In this document: positions 1,395 through 24,319 of the stretch, one piece after another
Position numbering within the stretch: the first letter of the stretch is position 1
Layout: each line of letters begins with the position of its first letter
Source of the DNA: Promethearchaeota archaeon
Lineage (GTDB): Archaea > Asgardarchaeota > Lokiarchaeia > Sigynarchaeales > SOKP01
Reading direction: 5' to 3'
Assembly (NCBI GenBank): GCA_016839635.1
Contig: JAEOTV010000225.1
Coordinates: forward strand, 1 to 26,611
DNA: 26,611 bases
The notes under the pieces: generated by a model
Told to the model about the DNA's origin: nothing
Databases searched by the model: none
The model's input: the letters and a program-made list of their open reading frames with translations, nothing else
Position numbers and translations under genes: made by a program

Positions 1395-2900
1395 ATGGAT
1401 TTAAGAAGTAACGCTAGAAAATATCTTCCTTTAATTGGATTTGTTTTGATTATAGGCCTTGTTTTATCTGGGTGGATTATATATCTTCCAACAATTCCTG
1501 AAAAAATTCCAAAGCCCGCTAAAAGAAAAGCAATAATTTTATGTAGTGCAAACGATTTCTACGGTAGTGAATCTGAAGATGAATTTAATGGTGGAAATGA
1601 TGCTACATTTGTAAATGATGAGGGAAATTGGACCTTTTCAGGAACTCCAAATAGTGTGGGAGTTCATTCCTTATTTGGTAATGAAACCACTGGATCTATA
1701 TTTATTGAACCAACTGATGGTAATCCAATAAGTGGTGAATTTACACTAGATTATTCAAATTTTTATGGATTACATGAATATGCCCTTTATAACTTAACAG
1801 CTAATTTATTCATACAAAGTGCTGCTACGGTTGATGGTAAAGGTGCTCAAATTGCACTTCGTTGGTTAAATTCGACTGGTGGAGTTGTAAGAACAGACAA
1901 ATCTAACAGTCTTAACTCGACAATTGGTAAATGGGTATCTCTTAATATTGTAAGTGTATGTAATAATGAAACAGGAACTGAAATTACAGATTTAGAATTA
2001 GTTTTTTCATTTGAGGGTGTTTTTGCAGGAGGACCTGCAGATCATGTATACCTTGATGATTTAATTCTGGATAGATTAGTTCAAATTAACTTGACAGATC
2101 CCGCAGATCCACCTCCTGATGGTAAAATTAATTCAGATGGTTTTCCTGCTCAAGCGTTGCAAGTTTATTGGATTTTAAAAGATAATGGATATACCGATGA
2201 TAATATATTCTTAATGCTCTATCATACGGGAGATGATGTAATAGATATCGATGCGGCTGATATTTACACTAATGATTTAAATAGATCCGGAGTACTTGCT
2301 GGCATAGATGTTGAAAATGATGATGTGAATGCAAGTAGGTTTAAGCAAGAATTAGATGTGTTTAACCCGGGTTCCTTTGCCTCAAGTTTGCGTGCCAAGG
2401 ATCAATTGATAATTTTCATGACTGATCATGGTTCAAATGCAGTTCTTCCAGATAAAAATGCGACATTTCATTTCGAAGCAGATAATAGCTATATTAATGA
2501 AACAGAATTTTATGATTTAGTAAAAGAAATACCTTGTACGAGAATGCTTATTTGCGTGGATTGTTGTTTTAGTGGTAATTTTCTAAATGAAAATAGTAAT
2601 ATTGGTCAGAGTTGGTATAATTTACCTAATTGTATTTTAATAAGTGCTGCGTCAAATGTTTTATCTTGGTATTGGATTAACAATAAGAACCCAGATGGTT
2701 TTGCAGGATCATGGTTTTTTCATCCATTTTGGGAACAATTAGATCTAAATCAAACTTTATTATCTGCTTATAATTTTGCATTAGGATTTAATCCGAGTAT
2801 TAATTTTCCAAAATCTGTTGCCATTATTCAGAATCCGTTGATGAAAGATTATTTAGGAATAAATGATGCATGGAGTTTTGATACCGATCCTCAATTATAA
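1395..2900 (+). CDS. Membrane-anchored clan CD (caspase/legumain C13-like) cysteine peptidase with inserted jelly-roll domain
   Basis: This is a 501-residue protein. Residues 11-32 form one hydrophobic N-terminal segment (signal anchor), placing the rest outside the cell. The clan CD core starts at about 45 with beta-strand KAIILCSAND and resumes at about 248 with a helix (FPAQALQVYWILKDNGY). The catalytic pair is visible: H345 in TDHG and C391 in DCCFSG, matching the metacaspase/legumain D-x-C-x-S-G pattern. A following strand (CILISAAS, 413-420) is the usual one after the catalytic Cys. About 180 residues (60-230) sit between the first strand and first helix. They are beta-rich, carry N-x-S/T sequons and end in an HVYLDDLILDRL strand, like a galactose-binding or lectin-like jelly roll. 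Family and catalytic residues are seen; secretion, substrate and autoprocessing are inferred. The N-terminal anchor and many sequons suit a glycosylated archaeal surface protein. Confidence 0.82.
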   Translation: MDLRSNARKYLPLIGFVLIIGLVLSGWIIYLPTIPEKIPKPAKRKAIILCSANDFYGSESEDEFNGGNDATFVNDEGNWTFSGTPNSVGVHSLFGNETTGSIFIEPTDGNPISGEFTLDYSNFYGLHEYALYNLTANLFIQSAATVDGKGAQIALRWLNSTGGVVRTDKSNSLNSTIGKWVSLNIVSVCNNETGTEITDLELVFSFEGVFAGGPADHVYLDDLILDRLVQINLTDPADPPPDGKINSDGFPAQALQVYWILKDNGYTDDNIFLMLYHTGDDVIDIDAADIYTNDLNRSGVLAGIDVENDDVNASRFKQELDVFNPGSFASSLRAKDQLIIFMTDHGSNAVLPDKNATFHFEADNSYINETEFYDLVKEIPCTRMLICVDCCFSGNFLNENSNIGQSWYNLPNCILISAASNVLSWYWINNKNPDGFAGSWFFHPFWEQLDLNQTLLSAYNFALGFNPSINFPKSVAIIQNPLMKDYLGINDAWSFDTDPQL

Positions 2901-2905
2901 ATCTA

Positions 2906-2923
2906 TTTTTTCAATCCTTTTTT
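2906..2923 (+). terminator. Double oligo-T terminator after the caspase-like gene
   Basis: Two T6 runs separated by six bases begin 6 nt after the stop codon. This is typical of archaeal intrinsic termination and separates this gene from the next surface-protein gene. Confidence 0.45.
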
Positions 2924-3047
2924 GTTAATTTAATAGTGAACTCTTTGATTATATTGAGTTTTTTAGATATTTACTATTTTCTTCACTTAAATTTATATTA
3001 CAATTAGAATTTATTCTAAAATAATAAGGTACAAATATAAGGTCATT

Positions 3048-3689
3048 ATGAAAGAAGTTTTTAAGAAGCATCGCAATGAATTAATTTTCAATTTAATTAT
3101 CTTCATATCACTTCTTTTAACAGGTGTAAATTCTCAAATCTACATTGATTTAAATAATCAAGAAGATAAAGGCGATCTCCTTAATAAAAACAATACAATA
3201 TTTATTTCTCAAGGTTCTAATAATGATACTACAGCACCTATTATTACAGTCATTCAACCAGAATACAATAATAGTATAATTAGAATAAAATCTTACACAA
3301 TAATAGCAAATATAACCGATGAGAATCCACCCCTTTATGGTAATGTAACATTTCAAATCTCAAATTTTACTCACTTTTTATTTAATGCTTCAATGAATCT
3401 TGACGGAGGAAATCAATGGAGTTTTAATTGGGATAATATCAGTTTATATCCAAATAGATTTTATAGGTGTTATATAATCCAAATTGTAGCTAAAGATTCA
3501 TCATCAGATCACAACATTGGAATGAGTGGAGAATTTTATATGTATTTAAATTTACCCGGAGTTAATCCAGGTATGTTAAATATATTTCTCTATCTTATAA
3601 TAGTAAGCTTACTTTTTGCAGGAATCGTAGTTTACTTAAATAGAAAAATACTTCGTAAAGTACCAGGCAAAAAAGCAGAAGAGGGGTAG
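3048..3689 (+). CDS. Secreted/membrane-anchored Ig-like surface protein
   Basis: A 213-residue protein of unknown function. Residues 11-29 are a hydrophobic signal or anchor segment after a basic N-terminus. The middle (about 65-165) contains APIITVIQPEYNNS and IIANITDENPP, the strand pattern of archaeal Ig-like/cadherin-like extracellular domains, with several N-glycosylation sequons. Residues about 178-197 form a second hydrophobic helix followed by a basic tail (RKILRKVPGKK), so the ectodomain should face outwards and the C-terminus inwards. It sits between the caspase-like surface protein and the giant coiled-coil gene, each with its own upstream AT-rich spacer (147 and 209 bp), so co-transcription is not assured. 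Likely roles are cell-surface adhesion or structure. No catalytic motif is visible. Confidence 0.7.
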   Translation: MKEVFKKHRNELIFNLIIFISLLLTGVNSQIYIDLNNQEDKGDLLNKNNTIFISQGSNNDTTAPIITVIQPEYNNSIIRIKSYTIIANITDENPPLYGNVTFQISNFTHFLFNASMNLDGGNQWSFNWDNISLYPNRFYRCYIIQIVAKDSSSDHNIGMSGEFYMYLNLPGVNPGMLNIFLYLIIVSLLFAGIVVYLNRKILRKVPGKKAEEG

Positions 3690-3882: not shown

Positions 3883-3887
3883 AGGAG
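3883..3887 (+). promoter_or_regulatory. Shine-Dalgarno AGGAG supporting a TTG start
   Basis: AGGAG lies 11 nt before the TTG at 3899. The only nearby in-frame ATG (3875) is followed by an in-frame TAG at 3893, so it cannot start the gene. The Shine-Dalgarno site therefore fixes TTG as the start. Confidence 0.6.
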
Positions 3888-3898
3888 TAATTTAGATA

Positions 3899-6800
3899 TT
3901 GACTATTCAAGATGATAAATCTGCTTATCCTTATATTACACAATTTAAAAAAGAGCCTTTTAAATCGTTTTTAAATATTAAAAGAAAAGAAATTAAAAGT
4001 TTCTATTACAAGAATTATACCAAACTAATTGAATTCTATCAATATTTTAATCAAAACCTATTAAATGCACCTCAATTAAATTTAGAAACAATTTATTGGT
4101 TCCTTTTACTTCGGAAATATCTTAAAGAAGATAAAAATGCAAATAGAGAAGAATTATTTAAATTTATAAAGAATTGTGAAGTTCATCAATATGAAAAAAT
4201 AGGATTCAAATTATCTCCTTATTCTGATAATATTCCCGACATTTATTCTACTTATTTAGCATTATCTTGCCTTAAAATTCTAGGTCTTTTAAAAGAATAT
4301 CTGCTTTCTGAGAAACAAACCCAAATTAAAGGAGAAATTAAAAATTTCGTTTTAGCCCATAAAAAAGGAAACAATTTTGTACATTGCCAAGATAAGGATT
4401 GTGAAACCTGCAAAAATTATCATCCTGCACAAATTTTATATTATGTATTGGAAATCTTCTCCCTCTTAGGAGTTGATGTTCGTAATAATAGGGACCAATT
4501 TCGTTCATTTCTCAGCGATAGAAAAAAAGACTCATCATTAATTTTTAGACTTTTATGCCTTAAATACATAGATCTTGATTCTGAAGTTAAAGATAAAGAA
4601 CTGCAATTCCTTCAACAACAGCAAAAAGAGAGTGGGGGATTCAGTTTTAATCAAGAAGCTAATATTAGTACAACTTTCTGGATGGGTTATACACTTGAGT
4701 TATATTCATGGTTATTAGACTATAATCCTACTGGGATTTATTCCTATATAAATCAAAAATTAGAGGAAATCATAACTGTTCAAGAAAATTGGGCGTTTCC
4801 TAAATTAAAAGAAGTCTCAAAATTAATTGTTCTTCTCTCATTGATTTGGCGGAAGTTTATTGAAGAAATTGAGAGAGAAATATTTAAGCATTTAGAAAAA
4901 GTAAATTATATTGACGTTAATCATTTAAAGACTACTTTTGGTTTTGCAGAATATATTGAAGATATTATATCATATATCAATCTTAATTACAATTTCAATT
5001 TACAGGTTGTAGACAATGAAGCTGAATTTAGGAAATATATCAATAACCTCAGCCAGGGAAAAAAAAAGTTCTTACAAGTCTTCTATGATAAACTAAAGAA
5101 CAATAGTATCATTTCTTTAACCGATCTCTCAAAGAAATATAGGTTTATAAACAATGAACCATTGAGATTGAGGGAAGAAATCTTTCCAATAATCAAAGAA
5201 ATGGTTGAAAAAAGGTTTTTTATAGGAAATATTAGAACAAAAAAGGTTTTTCTTGGTTTTAAAACAAAATACTTATTCTATTTGAACTATCTTTTGAAGA
5301 AAATTATTGTTTCTGATATGGATTTGAACACAGAAAGATTATATGAAGAAAAAGAAAAACTTGGAGACATTAGAAATGATATTTATAATATGACTTTAAA
5401 ATTAAATAGAGTTACCTCCCAGATAAAAGAAGAAATTGAAAGTTATCTTTTAATTGATGAGATTGAATATGCTAAAGTGAGGTTAAAATTCATATTAAGA
5501 GACGCTTTAATGGAAGCGGATTTTTTAAATGAAAATATCGAAAGCTCTTTTAACGAAATTCTTAAATATATCAACATACAAGCGAGTTTAGGTGCAGAGA
5601 TCGCTCAATGGAATAAATTATATTCTGTTTTACAGAAGAGATTATCAGATGTAGGTGCTTATCTTCAGAGTAAAATACAGGAAAAAGAAGATTTAAGAAA
5701 TCTAAATGACTTATTAGAAAATTTAAAAGAAAGAGTCGGTATCATTGAAGAAGATTTACACAAAAGATTAGATTCTTTCAGAAAGCTATTCAGCGATACT
5801 TTTGAAAAAGAATATGATAACGAGAAACTAAATCTTATTCTAGAGGATTTGGATCTAATTGCTCAAAATGTTAAAAAATATGATGCTATAATATATAATG
5901 TTTCTCAGCAGGTCACTACTAAGGAAAAGAAAATTGTTAAGAAACATAAAAAGACTATTGATAATTGGGTAAAGGTAAAGGATTTTTTCAATGTCGAATT
6001 CAATTATTATATTGATGGATTCCAACTTTTCAACATTAACTTACAAAAGATTGAAGAAATAAATGAACAAATTAAAATTGATATTAATGAAATCAACAAC
6101 AAAACAAGAAGTAAAATAGTGGCAAGTGCATTCCAAGATGCCTTTAATATTACCAAGAAAGAAACTGATCTGTTATTAAATAAGAGATTAAATGAAATTA
6201 AAGAACTTCAATCAGCAATTAAACAAGAAATTAAAAAAAAGCAGAAGCTCTATATACTTTATCGGCACATACAGGACAAATTAGAGGTTTTAGAATCTAA
6301 TGTGATCGAATTATTTGCTAACCAGGTAAAGGATTTAAAAAACAAAATCATAGAAGAAAGAAATCGAAGTAAATTGGAGGATTTTGATAATTATACTTCT
6401 CAAAATATTTCTGATCTCAAATCTCAATTGAAAAATACAAAAAGTAGTTTAAATTTATCTCATAATTTAACAATTGAGGATATTACCAAAAGATTTGATG
6501 TGTTAAAAAGTGATTATGATAAGATAAATAAAATTTATTTAAAAAAATTAAATGATTGTTATAAAAACATTGATAATTTTAAAGAAAAATCAGAGCTCAG
6601 TATAATTCAATGGGAGAAATTAAGTGAATTTTTTATCAATGAAATTTCAATTTTAAAGGATGAGTATGTCAATCGTATTATTTCATCAAAATTAAATGTA
6701 ATGGCTGTTGAGAAAAAAACAAATAATATTAAATTAGTTGATTTAAAGGATGAAATTAAATTATCTTGTAAGATTCTTGTAAATAGATTAAAGGATATGA

Positions 6801-8308
6801 TTGAGATTTCGAAAATCAATGCAGAACTTAATGAAGAAGAAAAATCTATTTTAGTATACACTGATCACTATTATTTAAATAAAGAACTCAAGAATTATAT
6901 TGATAATAACTTATTAAAATTAAATAGGGAGAGAATTGGTAAAATTTTAGCATTATATGATTCAAGCATTAGAAATAGGACTTTAAACACCAATATGTTA
7001 GAGCTCCAAAACAGAATTAATGATTTAAGAATTTTTAAAGATGTTCTCCCAAATCAATTCTATGAAAAAGTTCGGGAGCTTCAAATTAATCAGGAAAGGG
7101 AAGAATATATAGCTACAAAAAATAACTTTGAATCAATTCTAGAAAATGAAAGAGCAGCCATAAATAAAATAAACCAGAGTTTAAAGGTATTTAATGAAAT
7201 GCAGAGTTTTATAAGACAACAATTCAATAGCCTTAACATAGAAATGAAAGCGTATTCTGATAAAGTCTTCAAAGAACCCGAAAGTTATGATAATTACTTA
7301 AGAATTCAAGAAACTTTTGAAAGTAATAGACATAAAATTAATGAGGAATTGAAGAAATCTCAAAATAAAATTGAAGAACGAATAAATTCACTAATTAGTA
7401 AATCTGGTGATTCAAGTAAATTAGTTCCGGAAATAAGAGAGTTATATGTAAAAACAAAAAATGACTTTTCAAACTTTTTTAACAATAAAATACAAAAAAT
7501 TAATGATTATTTAAACAAGATGAAGAGTGAGTCATTTCGAGAGAAGTTGGTAAATCTTGTTAATAAAAAAAAGATTCATTTAAGCCAATTACTTGGTAAT
7601 TTAGAAAGAAAAGTAGAAGATAATATCGATATTAAAGAATTCAAGAAGAGTAATGTTTTAATTCAAAAGAGAGCAAAAAGTATTGAACTAGAGATCAAGG
7701 AGATTACAAAATCTATTGATAATACAACGAAAGAATTTACTAAACAATCTAAAAACTTTAGACATACGTCAAAATTTATACTAGAAGATTTCCATAAATT
7801 TATTGATGAATATACGGAGATTTTAACTGAAAAAGTTAAAGCTTTGGAACGTTTAATTCTAAAATCATATATAGATATGACTCTGAAAGCTGTTGCAAAT
7901 GGATATTTAACAGTTGGGTTTCTAAATAATGAATTAAAAATAAAAAAACAAAATATACAAGATCATTTACTCTTTCTAATCAGTGGCGAAGATTTAAATG
8001 GTAAATATGACCCCAGATTTGCTATATACTATGAAAATCCGGAAATACTTGAAGATCTAGATGAGGCCGAACTAGAAGTCATAAAAAGTACTAATTTTAA
8101 AATTAATATGATGATGCGTCATCTAAAAAATATAGCGAGTCAATATGGTTCCATTATTGCCTTCTTTGCGAGTGTTGTTACAATTTCATATTATTTATTC
8201 CTTTTTAGTGGAGGGAATCCTGCTGTACTTGCTTTACCAATTGTAATTACGGTACTTCTTATAGTATTTTATTTATTGAGAAAAAGTAAAGAAGAGAAGA
8301 TAAAGTAA
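3899..8308 (+). CDS. Giant coiled-coil protein with N-terminal prenyltransferase-like alpha/alpha toroid and C-terminal membrane hairpin
   Basis: 1469 residues, TTG start with a Shine-Dalgarno site. Residues about 60-300 are paired helices with the repeats DIYSTYLALSCLKILGLL and GGFSFNQEANISTTFWMGYTLELY. This is the GGF...TT/Y...L pattern of protein prenyltransferase/terpene cyclase alpha-alpha toroids (PF00432-like). A loop inside it has C163, C168, C171 and H175, a possible metal site. Residues about 340-450 look like a winged-helix or other small helical domain. Residues about 475-1320 are almost continuous charged coiled coil rich in K, E, N and L. Residues about 1330-1380 form a second winged-helix-like unit (GYLTVGFLNNELKI). 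Two hydrophobic helices at about 1418-1437 and 1444-1460 join through GGNPA, and a basic tail follows, so the bulk should face the cytosol on a C-terminal hairpin anchor. Function unknown; the layout recalls golgin-type tethers, which is analogy only. Prenyltransferase activity is not claimed. Confidence 0.8.
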   Translation: MTIQDDKSAYPYITQFKKEPFKSFLNIKRKEIKSFYYKNYTKLIEFYQYFNQNLLNAPQLNLETIYWFLLLRKYLKEDKNANREELFKFIKNCEVHQYEKIGFKLSPYSDNIPDIYSTYLALSCLKILGLLKEYLLSEKQTQIKGEIKNFVLAHKKGNNFVHCQDKDCETCKNYHPAQILYYVLEIFSLLGVDVRNNRDQFRSFLSDRKKDSSLIFRLLCLKYIDLDSEVKDKELQFLQQQQKESGGFSFNQEANISTTFWMGYTLELYSWLLDYNPTGIYSYINQKLEEIITVQENWAFPKLKEVSKLIVLLSLIWRKFIEEIEREIFKHLEKVNYIDVNHLKTTFGFAEYIEDIISYINLNYNFNLQVVDNEAEFRKYINNLSQGKKKFLQVFYDKLKNNSIISLTDLSKKYRFINNEPLRLREEIFPIIKEMVEKRFFIGNIRTKKVFLGFKTKYLFYLNYLLKKIIVSDMDLNTERLYEEKEKLGDIRNDIYNMTLKLNRVTSQIKEEIESYLLIDEIEYAKVRLKFILRDALMEADFLNENIESSFNEILKYINIQASLGAEIAQWNKLYSVLQKRLSDVGAYLQSKIQEKEDLRNLNDLLENLKERVGIIEEDLHKRLDSFRKLFSDTFEKEYDNEKLNLILEDLDLIAQNVKKYDAIIYNVSQQVTTKEKKIVKKHKKTIDNWVKVKDFFNVEFNYYIDGFQLFNINLQKIEEINEQIKIDINEINNKTRSKIVASAFQDAFNITKKETDLLLNKRLNEIKELQSAIKQEIKKKQKLYILYRHIQDKLEVLESNVIELFANQVKDLKNKIIEERNRSKLEDFDNYTSQNISDLKSQLKNTKSSLNLSHNLTIEDITKRFDVLKSDYDKINKIYLKKLNDCYKNIDNFKEKSELSIIQWEKLSEFFINEISILKDEYVNRIISSKLNVMAVEKKTNNIKLVDLKDEIKLSCKILVNRLKDMIEISKINAELNEEEKSILVYTDHYYLNKELKNYIDNNLLKLNRERIGKILALYDSSIRNRTLNTNMLELQNRINDLRIFKDVLPNQFYEKVRELQINQEREEYIATKNNFESILENERAAINKINQSLKVFNEMQSFIRQQFNSLNIEMKAYSDKVFKEPESYDNYLRIQETFESNRHKINEELKKSQNKIEERINSLISKSGDSSKLVPEIRELYVKTKNDFSNFFNNKIQKINDYLNKMKSESFREKLVNLVNKKKIHLSQLLGNLERKVEDNIDIKEFKKSNVLIQKRAKSIELEIKEITKSIDNTTKEFTKQSKNFRHTSKFILEDFHKFIDEYTEILTEKVKALERLILKSYIDMTLKAVANGYLTVGFLNNELKIKKQNIQDHLLFLISGEDLNGKYDPRFAIYYENPEILEDLDEAELEVIKSTNFKINMMMRHLKNIASQYGSIIAFFASVVTISYYLFLFSGGNPAVLALPIVITVLLIVFYLLRKSKEEKIK

Positions 8309-8353: not shown

Positions 8354-10507
8354 TTAGTCATAATCCATAATGAATTGCACATGATTATCTGATTTCTTAA
8401 GATATCCTAAAAAACATGCTTGATTAAAATGAGTGTGAAATTTACGATCAATGATATCTTCATCACGAGCAAGTTCTTGAAATTTTCTGTAATCCAATGT
8501 TCCATTTGTGCCATAAGTTTTAACTATATTAATTAGTGATTTTAAATTTTTATTCAAATATTTTTTTTGTTCCTTAAATTTCTTACTTTTCTTAGATTTC
8601 AGTCTAATTATTTTTTCTCGAAGGTTGAATTCATTAATTCTTATTAAATCTGAGTAAAATGTTACACCACACTGTTTGAGGCTTTGGTATTCTTCACTCT
8701 CACAGAAATCATCCAATTGTGTGATAATTTCTTCTATCGATCGATTAGCTAATTGATTTTGCTCTAATTCTTTTCTCTCTCTAAAATTTTTAATTAATTC
8801 TACTCCTGAATAATGAACTGGTTGGTCAGGAAATATAATGTTCTTACGTTCTAAATCTTTGATTAACCTCAATTGGCCAGGATCAGAAAGAACTATGTTC
8901 ATTGTTTTTTCTTTTCTTCTGGCAACAATGTAAAAGGGAACATCAACTGTTTCTTCTGTTACAAGTATATAACATCTTCCCGGAGCATATCTTCCTGTTC
9001 TTCCGCGTCTTTGAATTAACCTGATTTCTGAAGGAACAGGTTCAAAAAAAATGATAGCGTCCACATTTGGAATATCTAAACCTTCTTCAGCCACACTTGT
9101 GGCGACCAAAATATTTATTAATCCTTCTCTAAATTTTCTTAAAATTTCTATTTGTAAATGTTGGGGAAATCCACTATCATCCATTTTAGTTGCTTGACCA
9201 ATGAATTTTTCAATTTTCAGTTGCTCATTAAATTCAGTTTGTAATTTATTCTTTAGAAATTCTGCCATTTCCCGAAATTGTGTGAAGATTAGTATTTTTT
9301 TATTGCCAAATTCTTCAATTTCATCTTTAATAAGTGATATAATCTTCTTTAATTTAGGATGGGAGAGATTTATGTAATCTTCACTTTCAATTACAGAATT
9401 TATATAGGTAAAATGTTCTGAATTTGCAATTCTTTTTGCAGATAGGATATCTTTATTCGCCTTATAATTAATTTTTTCTAAAAATGATTTAAAAAGAGAA
9501 ATATCCTGTGTCTCTAATAGATCTTTAGCATGGAGAACAGATATGCAACTTGAACAATAAGAATATATAGAAGGGAGATCAAGTTGGTTTTCTTTAACAA
9601 TATCTATAACCCTAGGATGAGTATAATACAACGACTCTAAATATTCATCTTCTGATAATTCTATACCTTCCCCTCTTTCATATTGTATAGATAATGTCAA
9701 ATCTCGAGCAATTCCTAAGAAATCCAATTTGGAGTAATATGGTTTATTGGGAGGAATTAAATTGTTTTTGACAAACCATTTTAAATATATTTCAAATAAA
9801 TTATACCAAACTGTACTTAATTCTCTTATTTTAATTGGCAAATCTATTAAATTAATGTAAGTATCGATATCATAGATATAATCTTTTACATCTTTATCTT
9901 CATAGTTTTTAAATACAATGTTTTCAATGTATAAGTTATCGCAGATTTGCTGAATTCGTTCATAATTCTTTCCGGGAGATGCTGTTAGTCCTAATATTAA
10001 TGGATCTGTACATGTATTAATATATTCTTCTGAAATTGAATTATACGCATAATTCCCTTTAGTTTTATGAGCTTCATCGAAAATAATTAGTGAAACTTGT
10101 GTTAAATCATATCTACCTCTCATTAAGTCATTTTTTATTACTTGGGGAGTGGAAATTATTATTTTTGAACTCTGGAATGATAAAATTCTCTTCTCTGGAG
10201 GGATTTTCCCGGTAAATAATGTAATCTCATTTATATCAATATCAAGAAATTTTTCGCATGAATCTCTATGCTGTGAAACTAATGGTCGTGTAGGAGCAAG
10301 GATAATAATTTTTGCTTTTGAATATTTTATCAAGCGATTAGCTATTAATAAAATACCAATTATCGTTTTTCCTAACCCGGTTGGTAAAACTACTAATGAA
10401 TTCTTATTTTTACAATTTTTTACAATATTTTTTTGATATTCTCTAAATAAAATTTGATTCTTCTTCAAGAATGGTTCATTTAAATATACTCCAGGTTCTT
10501 CTTTCAT
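8354..10507 (-). CDS. Hef/Mph1/FANCM-type superfamily 2 DNA helicase without nuclease domain
   Basis: 717 residues. All SF2 helicase motifs are visible: Walker A PTGLGKT (42-48), APTRP (71-75), DEAH (144-147), TAS (175-177), and a C-terminal RecA domain with ATSVAEEGLDIP and the arginine-finger motif QRRGRTGR. A long helical insertion (about 230-380) lies between the two RecA lobes, as in archaeal Hef and eukaryotic FANCM/Mph1, which remodel stalled replication forks and branched DNA. The roughly 150 residues after the helicase core hold basic coiled coil and a small helical end. There is no ERCC4/XPF nuclease signature (GDx(n)ERKx3D) and no evident helix-hairpin-helix pair, whereas euryarchaeal Hef has both. 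So this is a helicase-only form, as in some other archaea. The final domain (about 640-717) is unrecognised. The nuclease might be a separate gene elsewhere. A 146-bp AT-rich spacer before the start probably holds its promoter. Confidence 0.85.
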   Translation of the reverse strand: MKEEPGVYLNEPFLKKNQILFREYQKNIVKNCKNKNSLVVLPTGLGKTIIGILLIANRLIKYSKAKIIILAPTRPLVSQHRDSCEKFLDIDINEITLFTGKIPPEKRILSFQSSKIIISTPQVIKNDLMRGRYDLTQVSLIIFDEAHKTKGNYAYNSISEEYINTCTDPLILGLTASPGKNYERIQQICDNLYIENIVFKNYEDKDVKDYIYDIDTYINLIDLPIKIRELSTVWYNLFEIYLKWFVKNNLIPPNKPYYSKLDFLGIARDLTLSIQYERGEGIELSEDEYLESLYYTHPRVIDIVKENQLDLPSIYSYCSSCISVLHAKDLLETQDISLFKSFLEKINYKANKDILSAKRIANSEHFTYINSVIESEDYINLSHPKLKKIISLIKDEIEEFGNKKILIFTQFREMAEFLKNKLQTEFNEQLKIEKFIGQATKMDDSGFPQHLQIEILRKFREGLINILVATSVAEEGLDIPNVDAIIFFEPVPSEIRLIQRRGRTGRYAPGRCYILVTEETVDVPFYIVARRKEKTMNIVLSDPGQLRLIKDLERKNIIFPDQPVHYSGVELIKNFRERKELEQNQLANRSIEEIITQLDDFCESEEYQSLKQCGVTFYSDLIRINEFNLREKIIRLKSKKSKKFKEQKKYLNKNLKSLINIVKTYGTNGTLDYRKFQELARDEDIIDRKFHTHFNQACFLGYLKKSDNHVQFIMDYD

Positions 10508-15644: not shown

Positions 15645-16136
15645 TTGAATTATGAAAAGGATATTATTCTATTTATTGAGGAAGAAATTCTTGAAGATAT
15701 AATACAATGTGTTGAGATGGCTTCTCCTAATGAAGCATGTGGTTTAATTTTTGGAAAAACAGAAGAAAAAAAAATACCCGACAGAGAAGATGAATATTCT
15801 TATTATTGTAATGCTTATAAATTTGAGTGTGTTGAATCGTTAAACAAAAATCCAGTTGCTTTCTTAATGGATGATTATGAGAGATTAGTAAGTCTCTCCA
15901 ATTCATATTCCGAAAGTTTTAATTATCAATTGCTAAGTATATTTCATTCTCATCCAGGAAGTGCTTATCCAAGTGGTATTGATTTGCCCTACATGGAAAG
16001 TTATTATAAAAGTAAAATATCAAAATTTAAGCATATAATCTGGACCATTATGAATGCTGAAAGTAAAGAACTGAATGGCTTTATCTTTATTTTTAATGAA
16101 CTTAAACAAATATCAATACAAATTAGAGAGCAATAA
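15645..16136 (+). CDS. JAMM/MPN+ (JAB) zinc isopeptidase-like protein
   Basis: 163 residues, a single MPN domain with the JAMM zinc site: E30 in NEACGLIFG, H101 and H103 in HSHP, S110 and D113 in PSGID. Eukaryotic relatives (Rpn11, CSN5) and archaeal/bacterial JAB proteins remove ubiquitin-like modifiers or process their C-termini. The segment between the second His and the Ser is six residues (PGSAYP) instead of the usual seven. The start is a TTG: no in-frame ATG exists between the upstream TAA and the first conserved strand, and a G-rich GGGGGTTAG (15625-15633) nearby could act as a ribosome site, though 14 nt is a long spacing. It is coupled to the DUF4443-like gene and ends 20 bp from the convergent proteasome beta gene. 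No ubiquitin, SAMP, E1 or E2 gene is in the window, so its substrate is unknown. Confidence 0.84.
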   Translation: MNYEKDIILFIEEEILEDIIQCVEMASPNEACGLIFGKTEEKKIPDREDEYSYYCNAYKFECVESLNKNPVAFLMDDYERLVSLSNSYSESFNYQLLSIFHSHPGSAYPSGIDLPYMESYYKSKISKFKHIIWTIMNAESKELNGFIFIFNELKQISIQIREQ

Positions 16137-16156
16137 TATTAATTTATGATAAGTTA

Positions 16157-16795
16157 TTAAACTTGTTTGAAACCGTTTTTATCAATACTACAAATTTGAA
16201 GTTCAGACCCAGAACCAGCATCTCGTTCTTTTGAGCTGGTGATTGCTGTTTTTATAAGCTCAATTCCCTTAGTTTTCGTAATATTTGGTTTCCAATCTGC
16301 TTCCAAGACACCTAAAGAAAAAGGACTACCGCTTCCAAATGAGATAAAACTTTCTTCCTCATACAATGTGCCTAGTAGGTCAATTCCGTAAAGTATACCC
16401 TTCTCTTCAGTTAAGGAGTAACCACCTACAATCATCATTGAAATGAAGTAGCTTCTTCCTGAGAAAAGAATGTTACGACAAATACTAGCTACGTATTTTG
16501 GCTCGGGCACTCTCTCTTCTTCAACTTCTTTTAACTTTGATAAAGCTCGCAGCTGATTAACGACATACTGACAATCTGCTACTCCACCTGCTATGGTGGC
16601 AGCAGTGAATTTATTTATTTCAAATAATTTTTGAGCTTGCTTAGAGGCTATAAAAGTACCTCCTGTAGCCTGACTTTCAGTACCTATTACGACTCCATCT
16701 TTTACAATTATGCCTACTGTTGTAGTACCTGTTTGCAGCATTTTTTCAATTTGTTTTTGATCCAATTGCCTAAGATTATTGTTATTTTCCATCAT
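16157..16795 (-). CDS. psmB: 20S proteasome beta subunit (archaeal, catalytic)
   Basis: 212 residues including a 23-residue propeptide ending QTG, which is cut off to expose Thr24 (mature Thr1) in TTTVGI. In mature numbering the catalytic set is present: Glu17 (as in Thermoplasma), Lys33 in KLFEI, the Ser129 region GSGSPF, and D166/S169 in ERDAGSG. This is the threonine protease of the cytosolic core particle, assembled with an alpha subunit not found here. The mature part has the usual core length but ends shortly after the last strand, lacking the extended tail of some homologues. Convergent with the JAMM gene and divergent from S8e. Two adjacent ATG codons make the start ambiguous by one residue. 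Confidence 0.95.
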   Translation of the reverse strand: MMENNNNLRQLDQKQIEKMLQTGTTTVGIIVKDGVVIGTESQATGGTFIASKQAQKLFEINKFTAATIAGGVADCQYVVNQLRALSKLKEVEEERVPEPKYVASICRNILFSGRSYFISMMIVGGYSLTEEKGILYGIDLLGTLYEEESFISFGSGSPFSLGVLEADWKPNITKTKGIELIKTAITSSKERDAGSGSELQICSIDKNGFKQV

Positions 16796-16820
16796 TTTGC
16801 GCGATAGTAGTATCTTTTAT

Positions 16821-16829
16821 CATATATAG
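16821..16829 (-). promoter_or_regulatory. TATA box of the proteasome beta gene
   Basis: CTATATATG on the minus strand is centred about 30 nt before the first ATG, so the transcript is likely leaderless or nearly so. No Shine-Dalgarno sequence is visible between this box and the start. Confidence 0.55.
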
Positions 16830-16975
16830 CTAATTTAATGTTTTATGTTAAATAAAAATTTTGTCTATATTTACTTTGCTTTAATAAATCATAATAAAGA
16901 GGAATTTTAAAAAAATTTTAAAGAAATACTTCCTTATCATACCTATTAATTTGGATATAATTTGGTAAATCTTTT

Positions 16976-17353
16976 ATGGCAAGAAGTCAAGCTCGAAGTA
17001 AGCGAAAATACACTGGAAAAAAGTATAAACACTTCAACAAAAAGCGAAAAAGAGAACTTGAAGGACCTACTTTAGATACAGAAATAGCTCCAGAAAAAAA
17101 GAAAAAGCAACGCACATTGGGAGGGAATTACAAGCTTAAGTTGTTTGCCACACAATTCATAAATGTTACCGATCCAGGCAATAATAAAACTCAAAAAGTT
17201 AGGATATTAGGCTTTGAAGAGAATATTGCTTCGAAAGATTTGAATCGAAGGCACGTGTTAACAAAAGGAGCTGTTGTTGAAACAGAATTGGGAAATGTGA
17301 GAATTACGAGCCGTCCAGGTCAACACGGAGTACTTAATGGAGTTTTAGTTTAA
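16976..17353 (+). CDS. rps8e: 30S ribosomal protein S8e
   Basis: 125 residues, the usual archaeal length. The N-terminus is very basic (ARSQARSKRKYTGKKYKHFNKKRKREL), followed by family blocks TLGGNYKLKLF, RILGFEEN, RRHVLTKGAVVETELG and RITSRPGQHGVLNGVLV. S8e is a small-subunit ribosomal protein shared by archaea and eukaryotes. Transcribed alone, divergent from the proteasome beta gene over 180 bp and convergent with the Nudix gene 19 bp downstream. Confidence 0.95.
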   Translation: MARSQARSKRKYTGKKYKHFNKKRKRELEGPTLDTEIAPEKKKKQRTLGGNYKLKLFATQFINVTDPGNNKTQKVRILGFEENIASKDLNRRHVLTKGAVVETELGNVRITSRPGQHGVLNGVLV

Positions 17354-21183: not shown

Positions 21184-22320
21184 TTAGAATGCATAAAGAT
21201 AAATATACGCTAATATTATTGTCAATGCATTGTATACTCCATGACAGATGATATTACTAATCAAATTCTCATTTCTCCAATAATAAATTAAACCTAAGAG
21301 CAATGAGATTATAAAGTAGGGGATAAAAGATAGAATAAATGAAATAAGAATTAGGATTGGTGAATCTATAAATAGAAGAACTATTCCCAACACATGAATC
21401 ATTGCAAATATGAACGCAGTTATCAATATCCCACCTATATTTCCTAAACTCCGCGTTAATCCTTTTTGCATAAATCCTCTAAATAAAATTTCCTCAGAAG
21501 TTCCTATAATTAATATCATTACTAAAGATAAGAGAATCAAGCTAAGAATATCACCTTCTGAGAGGAGGATTCCAGTATCACTAGAAGTACTACCTAGATC
21601 CTGTATAATCTCAACTCCAAAAAAAAACTCAAGAGTTATCTCAGTCAAAAATGAAACTCCATAAACTAAAAAATATCCGGCAACAGCAAATCCTAAGCCT
21701 ATTAAAATTTCTTTCAATAGTTTTTGTGTGTTGAATCCTTTTGAGGTAAAACCTAATAATCCTAATCTATTTTTTAAAGAAGGATTTCTGAGATATTTCC
21801 CAACGTATAATACTGGAACTAGTATAAAAATTAATTCGAAGAAAGAGCTAAATACTATGAAATATGGATTTGCTATAAAATCATATAAAGCCTCTAAATT
21901 AAAAGAAAAAAAAATCGTTATAGCTAGGATTCCCGCCGTAATAAAATTCATCAAAAGAAAGGACCCTAAGGATATTCCGATAGACGGCTTTAACCCCCAT
22001 AATTCATGATTTTTCGTATTAATTATTTCTTCGTCAGAAATTTTTAAAATTTCGTAAGAAATTAAAGGTACATCATGGTGAGAGTATTTTTCTGGTTGAA
22101 TATAAGGATTTATTGGGTTGGTTGGTTTTATTTGTTTATAATCTTTGAGATAGTTAAGATCAGTCCCGCATTTAATACAAAATTTAAGCTTCTGTATTTT
22201 TGGAATTTTATTACCACAAACAGGGCAAAAAGACCAAAATTTATTTTTTAATTCTTCTCTATTATCAGAATTAGAGATTTTTTGCTCAATAGTAGGATCT
22301 TGAATTTCTTTATCATTCAT
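21184..22320 (-). CDS. CPBP-family intramembrane glutamic protease with N-terminal zinc ribbon
   Basis: 378 residues. N-terminal zinc ribbon C32/C35 and C48/C51, then about eight membrane helices from residue 112. The CPBP (Rce1/CAAX-protease-like) motifs are all present: EEILFR (E276, E277, R281), F305-x3-H309 and H360-x3-N364. Rce1 removes the last three residues of prenylated CAAX proteins, but most prokaryotic members have other or unknown substrates. The cytosolic ribbon could recruit a substrate or partner. Its gene is followed 18 bp later by the MtxX-like gene. Confidence 0.85.
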   Translation of the reverse strand: MNDKEIQDPTIEQKISNSDNREELKNKFWSFCPVCGNKIPKIQKLKFCIKCGTDLNYLKDYKQIKPTNPINPYIQPEKYSHHDVPLISYEILKISDEEIINTKNHELWGLKPSIGISLGSFLLMNFITAGILAITIFFSFNLEALYDFIANPYFIVFSSFFELIFILVPVLYVGKYLRNPSLKNRLGLLGFTSKGFNTQKLLKEILIGLGFAVAGYFLVYGVSFLTEITLEFFFGVEIIQDLGSTSSDTGILLSEGDILSLILLSLVMILIIGTSEEILFRGFMQKGLTRSLGNIGGILITAFIFAMIHVLGIVLLFIDSPILILISFILSFIPYFIISLLLGLIYYWRNENLISNIICHGVYNALTIILAYIYLYAF

Positions 22321-22405: not shown

Positions 22406-24319
22406 TTAAATGCCAATTCTCATAAATTTAGAAATCCTATTAATTTCAATGTCACTTTGTAAAAATCCTGACTTTGATAAGTTATAATATTTGAAATTAG
22501 CAAGTTCTTGATCGTTTTCAACTTCTAATTCAAGCTTTATTGAAGGCATCCAAAATGTTTTATTAATATGTTGGTATTCAACCATTACCATGAAGAGAAA
22601 TTTGCCTATTTTTTTCGGAACAACTTTAGTTTTGATTTTTGATATTTCATTAGATTTTAACCGTTTAATGCTTGTATATTCTAATTTAGATTCAAAAGAA
22701 TCTGACATAAAGAAATAAATCTTTATATCTTTAATTTCACTTAAGTTAGGATTCTCAATTGAAACTGTAATCATTTCTGGGTGATTTAACTCAAGTTTTT
22801 TATTATGTAATTTAAGATCTATGAAAAGAGGGTATGGTACAACTTTCTCATTCAAATTAAAACTTAAATCAATGAGTTTTTGAAGATTAGGCTTTACTTT
22901 TAAACTAAATTGACTTTTTTGTTCTTCTAAAGAAAGTACTTTTTTACTTCTTGCCTCATCAAATCGTTGAAAAATATAATTAATATATTTCAAGATGTAA
23001 TTATCAAATTCTGTGTGTTTTTTCGAGATTAACGAAATCAATTTTTTATAATATTCCGCTTCAAGATCTCGAAGTAAAGGCTTCTCGAAAAGATCTTTGA
23101 TGAAGTTTCTTAAGAGCTCATCTAATTGGATTAAATCATTATGTTCAATTTCAAATTTCTCAATAATTTTTCCATTTAACTTATCCTCTTGTAAAATGTC
23201 GCTTAGAGAACTCAATAGTTCAATAGCCTCAGAGTTATAACCATCAAGAGCTTTTAAAATCATAATTTCCAATAAATAATTGAATTTCTGAACATTTTTG
23301 TTTTTGTAATTGATGAATTCTGTGCGGTAAGTTTCTAAGTACTTAACCAATTTTCCAGAATGCAATTTTAAAAGGCTTCTTTGATATCTTTGGTATCTTT
23401 CAGAAAAATTTTCAATCCAATGTCGAACAGTATTTAGTTTCTCTATATTTGCTTCATTATTAAATATGAGGTTTTCTTCCAAATTATCCGTGGAGAGCAA
23501 TGGACAATCGATTTTTACTTTCTCTAAAACAACACTCGTTTCACGTTCTAGCTGATAAATATTTTCAATTTGACTATATAAATTATACTTTCGAAATTCT
23601 TCTGCTTTAATTTTAAAAAGCCTATCAAGCAAATCTTCTAACTTATCAGAATAAAATTTCGGATTATTATTTAAGATACCTCTCAATATTGCTGTAAATT
23701 CGGAAAGAATAGCATAAAAATCTTTTTCCTTATAAATGTTAGAACGTACATTCTCAAGTTTACTGATATTACAAAAATCTACAATATTTTGGTAGTTTTT
23801 CTCAGTAAGTCTATAATATTTCTCACAATTATCAGGAGATAATGAATTTTTTGCTAAATAACTATAATATAATGCTATCAATGATTTATTAATAATAAAG
23901 GAAAAATCTCTAAACTCTTCATATTTCTTTCTCTTTTCCTCATCTTCTATATAGGGTAAAATTATTTCCTCAAGAATTATCCCGAAATTACCTGCTGAAC
24001 GAATCGTATGGAATAATTTTAATGGATCGATATTTAAATTGTCTAATTTCGTAATTATTAAATGCCTATATTCATTAAAATCAGATTTAAGATTATAGAA
24101 AAATGATTCAATTAGCGATTTTCTTCTCTCAAGCTCTGAGATTTTAACTTTTTTTTCAGTCTTATATAATGTAAGATTTAATATTTCTCCTAAGTAATAT
24201 TTAAATGAATAGATAGATTCCATATATAAAGTTTTTGCCCCACAATAAGGACAGTGGGCAACAGATCCTTTAATGGCGGGTAGTGCAGACCCACATTTCT
24301 TGCATGGTAAATTCCGCAT
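22406..24319 (-). CDS. Zinc-ribbon, helical/coiled-coil and C-terminal beta-sandwich protein, unknown
   Basis: 637 residues without signal or membrane helix. The N-terminal zinc ribbon has C6, C9, C23 and C26 (CKKCG...CPYCG). Residues about 40-480 are all helical and charged, a long helical-repeat or coiled-coil body. Residues about 495-615 turn to beta (YPLFIDLKLHNKKLEL, EMITVSIENPN, FLFMVMVEYQH, IKLELEVEN), a CARDB/Ig-type sandwich. Ribbon plus sandwich is shared with the protein at 13828-14817. Helical body plus Ig-like C-terminal domain is also the layout of coat-adaptor large chains, but that is only a shape analogy. No family recognised with confidence. AT-rich promoter sequence lies about 30 nt before the start. 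Confidence 0.68.
   Translation of the reverse strand: MRNLPCKKCGSALPAIKGSVAHCPYCGAKTLYMESIYSFKYYLGEILNLTLYKTEKKVKISELERRKSLIESFFYNLKSDFNEYRHLIITKLDNLNIDPLKLFHTIRSAGNFGIILEEIILPYIEDEEKRKKYEEFRDFSFIINKSLIALYYSYLAKNSLSPDNCEKYYRLTEKNYQNIVDFCNISKLENVRSNIYKEKDFYAILSEFTAILRGILNNNPKFYSDKLEDLLDRLFKIKAEEFRKYNLYSQIENIYQLERETSVVLEKVKIDCPLLSTDNLEENLIFNNEANIEKLNTVRHWIENFSERYQRYQRSLLKLHSGKLVKYLETYRTEFINYKNKNVQKFNYLLEIMILKALDGYNSEAIELLSSLSDILQEDKLNGKIIEKFEIEHNDLIQLDELLRNFIKDLFEKPLLRDLEAEYYKKLISLISKKHTEFDNYILKYINYIFQRFDEARSKKVLSLEEQKSQFSLKVKPNLQKLIDLSFNLNEKVVPYPLFIDLKLHNKKLELNHPEMITVSIENPNLSEIKDIKIYFFMSDSFESKLEYTSIKRLKSNEISKIKTKVVPKKIGKFLFMVMVEYQHINKTFWMPSIKLELEVENDQELANFKYYNLSKSGFLQSDIEINRISKFMRIGI

Follow-up and report, generated by a model that had tools for sequence, protein, structure and literature searches.

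The gene and its relatives

The window analysed here, the whole stretch of 26,611 nucleotides of contig JAEOTV010000225.1 from a Promethearchaeota archaeon (GCA_016839635.1), encodes a protein of 1469 amino acids in a single open frame on the forward strand (positions 3899..8308), to which all the features below belong. The gene starts with TTG, and an AGGAG sequence resembling a ribosome-binding site lies 11 nucleotides upstream of the start (3883..3887, +), as read from the sequence. Two other loci (L001 and L002) share the same TTG start and length. A sequence-only reading of the window had proposed this frame, with a globular head, winged helices, a rod and a hairpin membrane anchor following one another, and both the frame and the order of the parts were confirmed. 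The sole Pfam family found in the protein was PF00432 (E 1e-8, residues 49-165).

A homologue search over about 5.8 billion proteins (E 0.001 or better) recovered 174 relatives, 120 of which were listed, including the window's own entry. Most of the listed relatives measure 1460-1490 amino acids and can be aligned with the query from end to end, at 47-88% identity. All those with a named source come from Asgard archaea, for the most part Loki- or Promethearchaeota, and some sources bear the bin labels Hermod-, Hod-, Thor-, Heimdall- or Odinarchaeota. Conservation was read from an alignment of 61 sequences (A1), comprising the window protein and 60 homologues, chosen with an eye to spread and length among the 119 listed relatives other than the window's own (of 174); alignments A6-A10 comprise the window and 22 of 41 full-length genes.

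Phylum and class were defined by the close relative G001 (L001, Candidatus Lokiarchaeia archaeon). Searched for across these Asgard genomes, the protein gave a match in 74 of 227 genomes of the phylum (E 1e-5), all of them within the 83 genomes of the class of G001, and no match in the 144 phylum genomes outside this Lokiarchaeia class at the same threshold. One match covering at least 85% of the protein was found in 58 of the 74 genomes, among them G102, whose copy has an internal stop; the remaining 16 contain pieces, many at contig ends. Copy number in the class is mostly one. An apparent truncation in G123 was attributed to the assembly, because a run of N (scaffold gap) directly precedes the fragment. 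Nine class genomes, for which completeness was not given, had no match (G087, G090, G128, G150 and G158-G162). A profile search extended the count to 79 of 227 phylum genomes, the five extra ones (G003, G177, G178, G179 and G187) containing parts only, in other proteins.

A prenyltransferase-beta-like head

Residues 34-335 (3998..4903, +) constitute an alpha/alpha toroid resembling the beta subunits of protein prenyltransferases (the FTase/GGTase beta kind). Besides the match to PF00432, helices in the predicted model span residues 40-335 and the head matched RabGGTase beta structurally over residues 34-321, so that the feared failure to match the toroid fold did not occur. The sequence-only reading had left the head between prenyltransferases and terpene cyclases, and it is the relation to prenyltransferase beta chains that stood. 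A generic squalene-cyclase head was considered, as the top Foldseek match was squalene-hopene cyclase, yet the profile search (E 1 or better) yielded protein-prenyltransferase beta chains exclusively. All 50 VIA rows listed for the head were such chains, and cyclases were not among the matches listed. Among solved structures, the head is closest to protein-prenyltransferase beta subunits and not to a generic terpene-cyclase toroid.

RabGGTase (Rab geranylgeranyltransferase) is the enzyme that attaches lipids to trafficking proteins of eukaryotes. In its beta subunit from rat, D238, C240 and H290, letters which are present in the alignments, form the catalytic zinc triad, and R232 and K235 are basic residues that bind the diphosphate. 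Equivalent residues in the head were assigned by a constant offset of 17, taken from the end points of the structural match and with no printed structural alignment. The positions thus inferred for the triad (255, 257 and 307) are not D, C and H in the 61 sequences. At the positions inferred for the basic residues, 249 is S in 46 of 61 sequences, and 252 is Q in 21 and K in another 21. The head thus appears to have lost catalysis, judging from its residues. Other positions are strictly conserved. An F-W pair (residues 260-261; 4676..4681, +), the inferred equivalent of W243-W244 of RabGGTase beta by the same offset, is invariant at both residues (61/61). The alignment also revealed a putative zinc site, H-C-x4-C-x2-[C/D], in the toroid (residues 162-171; 4382..4411, +), in which H162, C163 and C168 are invariant (61/61) and position 171 is C in 38 sequences, D in 20, E in two and N in one. 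The head therefore shares its fold with RABGGTB and other prenyltransferase beta subunits, but differs from RABGGTB in lacking the conserved catalytic zinc ligands, in carrying the extra H-C-x4-C-x2-[C/D] site and in being fused to about 1100 residues of rod and membrane anchor. Because the catalytic triad was looked for and not found, we file the protein as a membrane-anchored rod protein and not as a prenyltransferase. Five further toroid proteins from the phylum showed no canonical zinc triad (D-x-C) either. Prenyltransferase-toroid proteins of 1030-1063 amino acids are encoded at L061:923-4105, L062:939-4130 and L063:3163-6255, the first of which has a Pfam ABC ATPase domain behind its toroids.

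A duplicated rod with winged helices

Two winged-helix-like segments follow the head (residues 338-472; 4910..5314, +), as the sequence-only reading had supposed. In the secondary structure of the model they lie at about 338-382 (winged helix 1, WH1) and 386-472 (WH2), the latter with a long wing. In the L043 paralogue, the second segment gave a weak PCI match (E 8.5e-4), under Pfam's cut-off. A stretch homologous to WH1-WH2 also forms the end of HEAT-repeat proteins in G177 and G178, two Asgard genomes from outside the class (L065:2219-3598 and L066:1302-2684). Next comes a helical cap bundle delimited by alignment and model (residues 478-603; 5330..5707, +), which contains the best conserved block of 25 residues in the whole protein (526-550).

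About 850 residues had been read as coiled coil. A long helical stretch is indeed present, but the monomer models of residues 478-1320 predict serial bundles, in which a pattern of long helices interspersed with short ones recurs about every 105-112 residues, and two more winged helices, one inside the stretch (943-986) and one at its end (1336-1378). A single long coiled coil was therefore rejected on the monomer models, the stretch also being internally duplicated, but a dimeric coiled coil is conceivable. Unit A consists of a rod of helical bundles, according to the helix pattern of the model (residues 604-912; 5708..6634, +), and a PCI-type winged helix, WH3 (residues 913-990; 6635..6868, +). 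In unit B, a rod whose bundles are predicted to be arranged like three spectrin repeats (residues 991-1300; 6869..7798, +) is closed by WH4, a PCI-type winged helix homologous to WH3 (residues 1301-1382; 7799..8044, +).

The rod plus winged helix is a tandem duplication. Profiles of residues 607-981 and 995-1374 aligned over 370 columns with E 5.8e-19 (score 151), the two rods alone over 299 columns with E 5.5e-14, and WH3 with WH4 with E 6e-13. In control comparisons, the rods scored 104 against 40 and 43 for reversed profiles (E 2e-4 and 7e-5) and 27 for the best of 40 heptad-block shuffles; the E values of the reversed profiles indicate some compositional background. WH3 and WH4 scored 73 against 11 when reversed.

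The lengths of these units were tabulated in 42 rows corresponding to 41 genes (L048 repeats L011), with L003 and L004 (repeats of L001 and L002), L032, L043, L044 and L046 omitted. The cap measures 125-128 residues across the 42 rows, and unit B 387-398 residues in all of them. Unit A measures 381-389 residues in the 38 rows with at least 24% identity and 403-414 in the four with 17-19%. The rod alignment is nearly free of gaps over the 61 sequences. Such constancy of length despite low identity fits the idea of a ruler. Since the stretch consists of duplicated helical bundles with PCI-type winged helices, the rod would be tens of nanometres long instead of about 125 nm, and dimerisation would not be required. 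A spectrin repeat is about 5 nm long, and by analogy we infer a length of about 30-40 nm.

PCI proteins (Rpn6/PSMD11, CSN2 and eIF3e) and the UFM1 E3 ligase DDRGK1/UFL1 likewise have a winged helix closing a helical stretch, as seen in both profile and fold matches. Unlike them, the window protein has two PCI-type units in tandem on one membrane-anchored chain. The curated Pfam model of PCI passed its cut-off in five of six relatives scanned (P0097, P0101, P0104, P0024 and P0121) and not in the window protein. The predicted series of bundles, each about 105-112 residues long, is also reminiscent of the rods of spectrin, plectin and alpha-actinin, and of bacterial EzrA. However, no sequence relation to spectrin-type rods was detected; the Pfam spectrin model was not seen in the scan of the window protein, nor among the families listed (25 of 70) in a second search.

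The predicted membrane anchor and paralogues with other ends

The protein ends in a predicted two-helix membrane hairpin (residues 1417-1468; 8147..8302, +), supported by hydrophobicity, model and homologues. Its helices (1417-1436 and 1441-1468) are joined by a short G-G-N-P loop and have basic flanks on either side, which suggests that both ends of the hairpin would face the cytosol. The absence from homologues that would have spoken against this anchor did not occur: all 61 aligned sequences have two hydrophobic peaks in their last 75 residues, and the hairpin was present in 13 of 16 loci. Of the other three, two are paralogues that lack it and one is a gene running off the end of its contig.

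Some paralogues have another end. A domain of about 135 residues follows the last winged helix in L044 (G082), L059 (G101), L060 (G102, partial) and the Helarchaeota proteins P0126, P0127 and P0133, and Pfam detected the toroid in all of these except L060. In L097 (G084) and L096 (G100), the stretch read covers just the rod, the region of the last winged helix and the same domain. Genomes G082, G101 and G102 also have a hairpin-type gene, and in G101 it is flanked on both sides by genes with the domain. The paralogues L043/L072 and L058 stop after the rod, with neither hairpin nor this domain. Relatives of the domain gave weak but repeated matches to roadblock/longin families; a broader set of 12 domain sequences weakly matched Sybindin (five), Intu_longin (four) and Fuz_longin (two), and MglB appeared at E 0.05 among unrelated matches. 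The narrower family searches found no longin, and Pfam had no good model for the domain. The roadblock/longin-like domain occurs in 72 of 227 Asgard genomes (E 1e-20), in many cases in open frames of more than 1000 amino acids, and in G179, outside the class, it is fused to a prenyltransferase toroid in a protein of 428 amino acids (L068:986-2272). Domains of this kind are known from small-GTPase regulation, and these ends therefore offer a circumstantial tie between the family and GTPase regulation.

At L044, the gene convergent with the longin-ended paralogue (7209-8219) encodes a Ras-family GTPase that carries about 175 extra residues at its N-terminus. A GTPase as constant neighbour of such paralogues was rejected, as none of the four neighbours scanned at L059 is a GTPase, nor is the single one scanned at L060, where the contig ends.

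Possible functions

The explanation that we favour, tentatively, is the one put forward in the sequence-only reading: a cytosolic scaffold or tether whose C-terminus is anchored in the membrane, to which we add a non-catalytic binding head. It still ranks first. Computation supports the gene, its conservation, the fold relations of the head and of WH3 and WH4, the duplication, the constant length and the hydrophobic nature of the hairpin; the packing of the rod and the topology of the hairpin are predicted, and loss of catalysis, ligand binding and tethering are the conjectural part. The hairpin would anchor the protein in the membrane and leave both its termini cytosolic, and the two tandem units of helical bundles would build a rod of constant length, along which the PCI-type winged helices may act as docking or oligomerisation points. 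At the far end, the RabGGTase-beta-like toroid, its catalysis lost and its hydrophobic pocket probably kept, might bind a prenyl or other isoprenoid group or the C-terminus of a partner protein, and thereby hold the carrier of its ligand at a fixed distance from the membrane. The roadblock/longin-like links, circumstantial as they are, led us to prefer a GTPase-related tether or scaffold to a plain spacer.

Each part of the protein resembles a known fold, and what is new is their combination. In the open-licence literature of PubMed Central (PMC; preprints outside scope), no description of the head/winged-helix/rod/hairpin architecture was found, in agreement with the sequence-only reading, which knew of no protein with this domain order. 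Golgins are described as long cytosolic rods with a C-terminal membrane anchor and a projecting end (PMC4707255). Compared by description, the window protein is likewise a long cytosolic rod (its extension being predicted) with a C-terminal anchor (hairpin in 61/61) and a projecting end. It differs from golgins in its predicted helical bundles (monomer models) in place of a parallel two-stranded coiled coil, in the PCI-type winged helices within the rod, in the prenyltransferase-like head and in the hairpin anchor. A table in one paper marks prenyltransferases as absent from Lokiarchaeum (PMC4917890), and a passage in another mentions archaeal folds like the GGTase beta subunit and archaeal Rab-like proteins without C-terminal cysteines (PMC4915359).

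Two other explanations are unlikely, and we rank them equally. In the first, the protein would be an element of a membrane skeleton, its rod cross-linking or spacing proteins along the membrane and its head serving as one more protein interface. Spectrin and bacterial EzrA are membrane-associated rods that space or cross-link. The constant rod length agrees with such a role, and in the structural comparison of the second rod the seven top-ranked entries were all spectrin chains, plectin, alpha-actinin and nesprin ranking lower. However, a structural match of this strength is no more than background for helical models, no spectrin model appeared among the matches listed, Pfam revealed no actin-binding domain in the window protein (E up to 1), and the F-W pair and H-C-x4-C site of the head are invariant (61/61).

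In the second, the protein would be a membrane-bound PCI-type assembly platform akin to UFL1/DDRGK1 or to the lid/CSN/eIF3 hub, with the winged helices nucleating a complex. The PDB matches of WH3 were a UFL1/DDRGK1 chimera (best, E 2.4e-5), DDRGK1 (0.005), Rpn6 (0.006) and eIF3e (0.02), the best match of WH4 was Rpn6 (E 0.001), and Pfam DDRGK was found in 7 of 23 members (E 1 or better). Genes for a JAB protein and a proteasome subunit also lie 7-8 kb away in the window. PCI-type winged helices are, however, widely alike, cullin-2 also matching WH3 (E 0.04), and of 32 loci, many of which have short flanks, only 2 have JAB near the gene. Such a platform and a tether are compatible and do not exclude each other.

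An active membrane-anchored prenyltransferase or isoprenoid enzyme, in which an earlier repeat would have taken over the zinc site with H162/C163/C168/C171, and D114 of the repeat before it might be a further ligand, is improbable: the invariance of H162, C163 and C168 and the near-invariance of D114 (60/61) do speak for it, and alignments of hidden Markov models pair the D114 repeat with either the D238 or the D287 repeat of RabGGTase beta, so that a rotated register is possible, but neither the Asp-Cys...His triad nor the diphosphate-binding Arg is conserved at the inferred positions (252 being Lys in only a third of sequences, 21/61), the distant member L038 is without the H-C-x4-C motif and 23 of the 61 sequences have D, E or N at position 171.

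The scaffold or tether could take a bolder form, which we regard as rather unlikely: a prokaryotic prenyl reader, in which a silent RabGGTase-beta relative, held 30-40 nm off the membrane on a duplicated bundle/PCI ruler, would capture isoprenoid-bearing or GTPase-linked cargo, and a paralogue would swap the anchor for a roadblock/longin-like domain. If so, Lokiarchaeia would have invented a way of tethering membranes from the same kinds of components as serve Rab prenylation, PCI complexes and spectrin rods in eukaryotes. Lokiarchaeia are relatives of the ancestors of eukaryotic cells. This family, which has matches in 74 of the 83 class genomes and joins a RabGGTase-beta-like head to a rod of constant length with a membrane anchor, bears on whether, and by what, Asgard archaea organise internal membranes, and it provides one defined gene product whose candidacy as membrane tether or scaffold can be tested.

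Genomic context

The gene neighbourhood indicates no pathway. In other loci, the search covered the window's own neighbour genes (32 loci, many with short flanks). The downstream gene, an SF2 helicase (8354-10507), is convergent with the rod-protein gene in 23 of 32 loci, including some in which the rod protein is only 25-26% identical. Directly upstream, on the same strand (1395-3689), are genes for a C13 (legumain-like) peptidase with an N-terminal hydrophobic segment and for a small immunoglobulin/transmembrane (Ig/TM) protein with hydrophobic segments at both ends. An operon with these two was rejected, each occurring in just 11 of 32 loci and the Ig/TM gene only at rod-protein identities of at least 58%.

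An Rfam scan of the window found tRNA-Pro only. The product of 22406-24319, a protein of 637 amino acids, had no Pfam match at E 0.01. Genes for the JAB-domain protein, the proteasome subunit and ribosomal protein S8e adjoin one another at 15645-17353, and the first two are also together in L002. The gene at 21184-22320, 13 kb from the prenyltransferase-like gene, encodes an Rce1-like CAAX protease preceded by a weak zinc-ribbon match.

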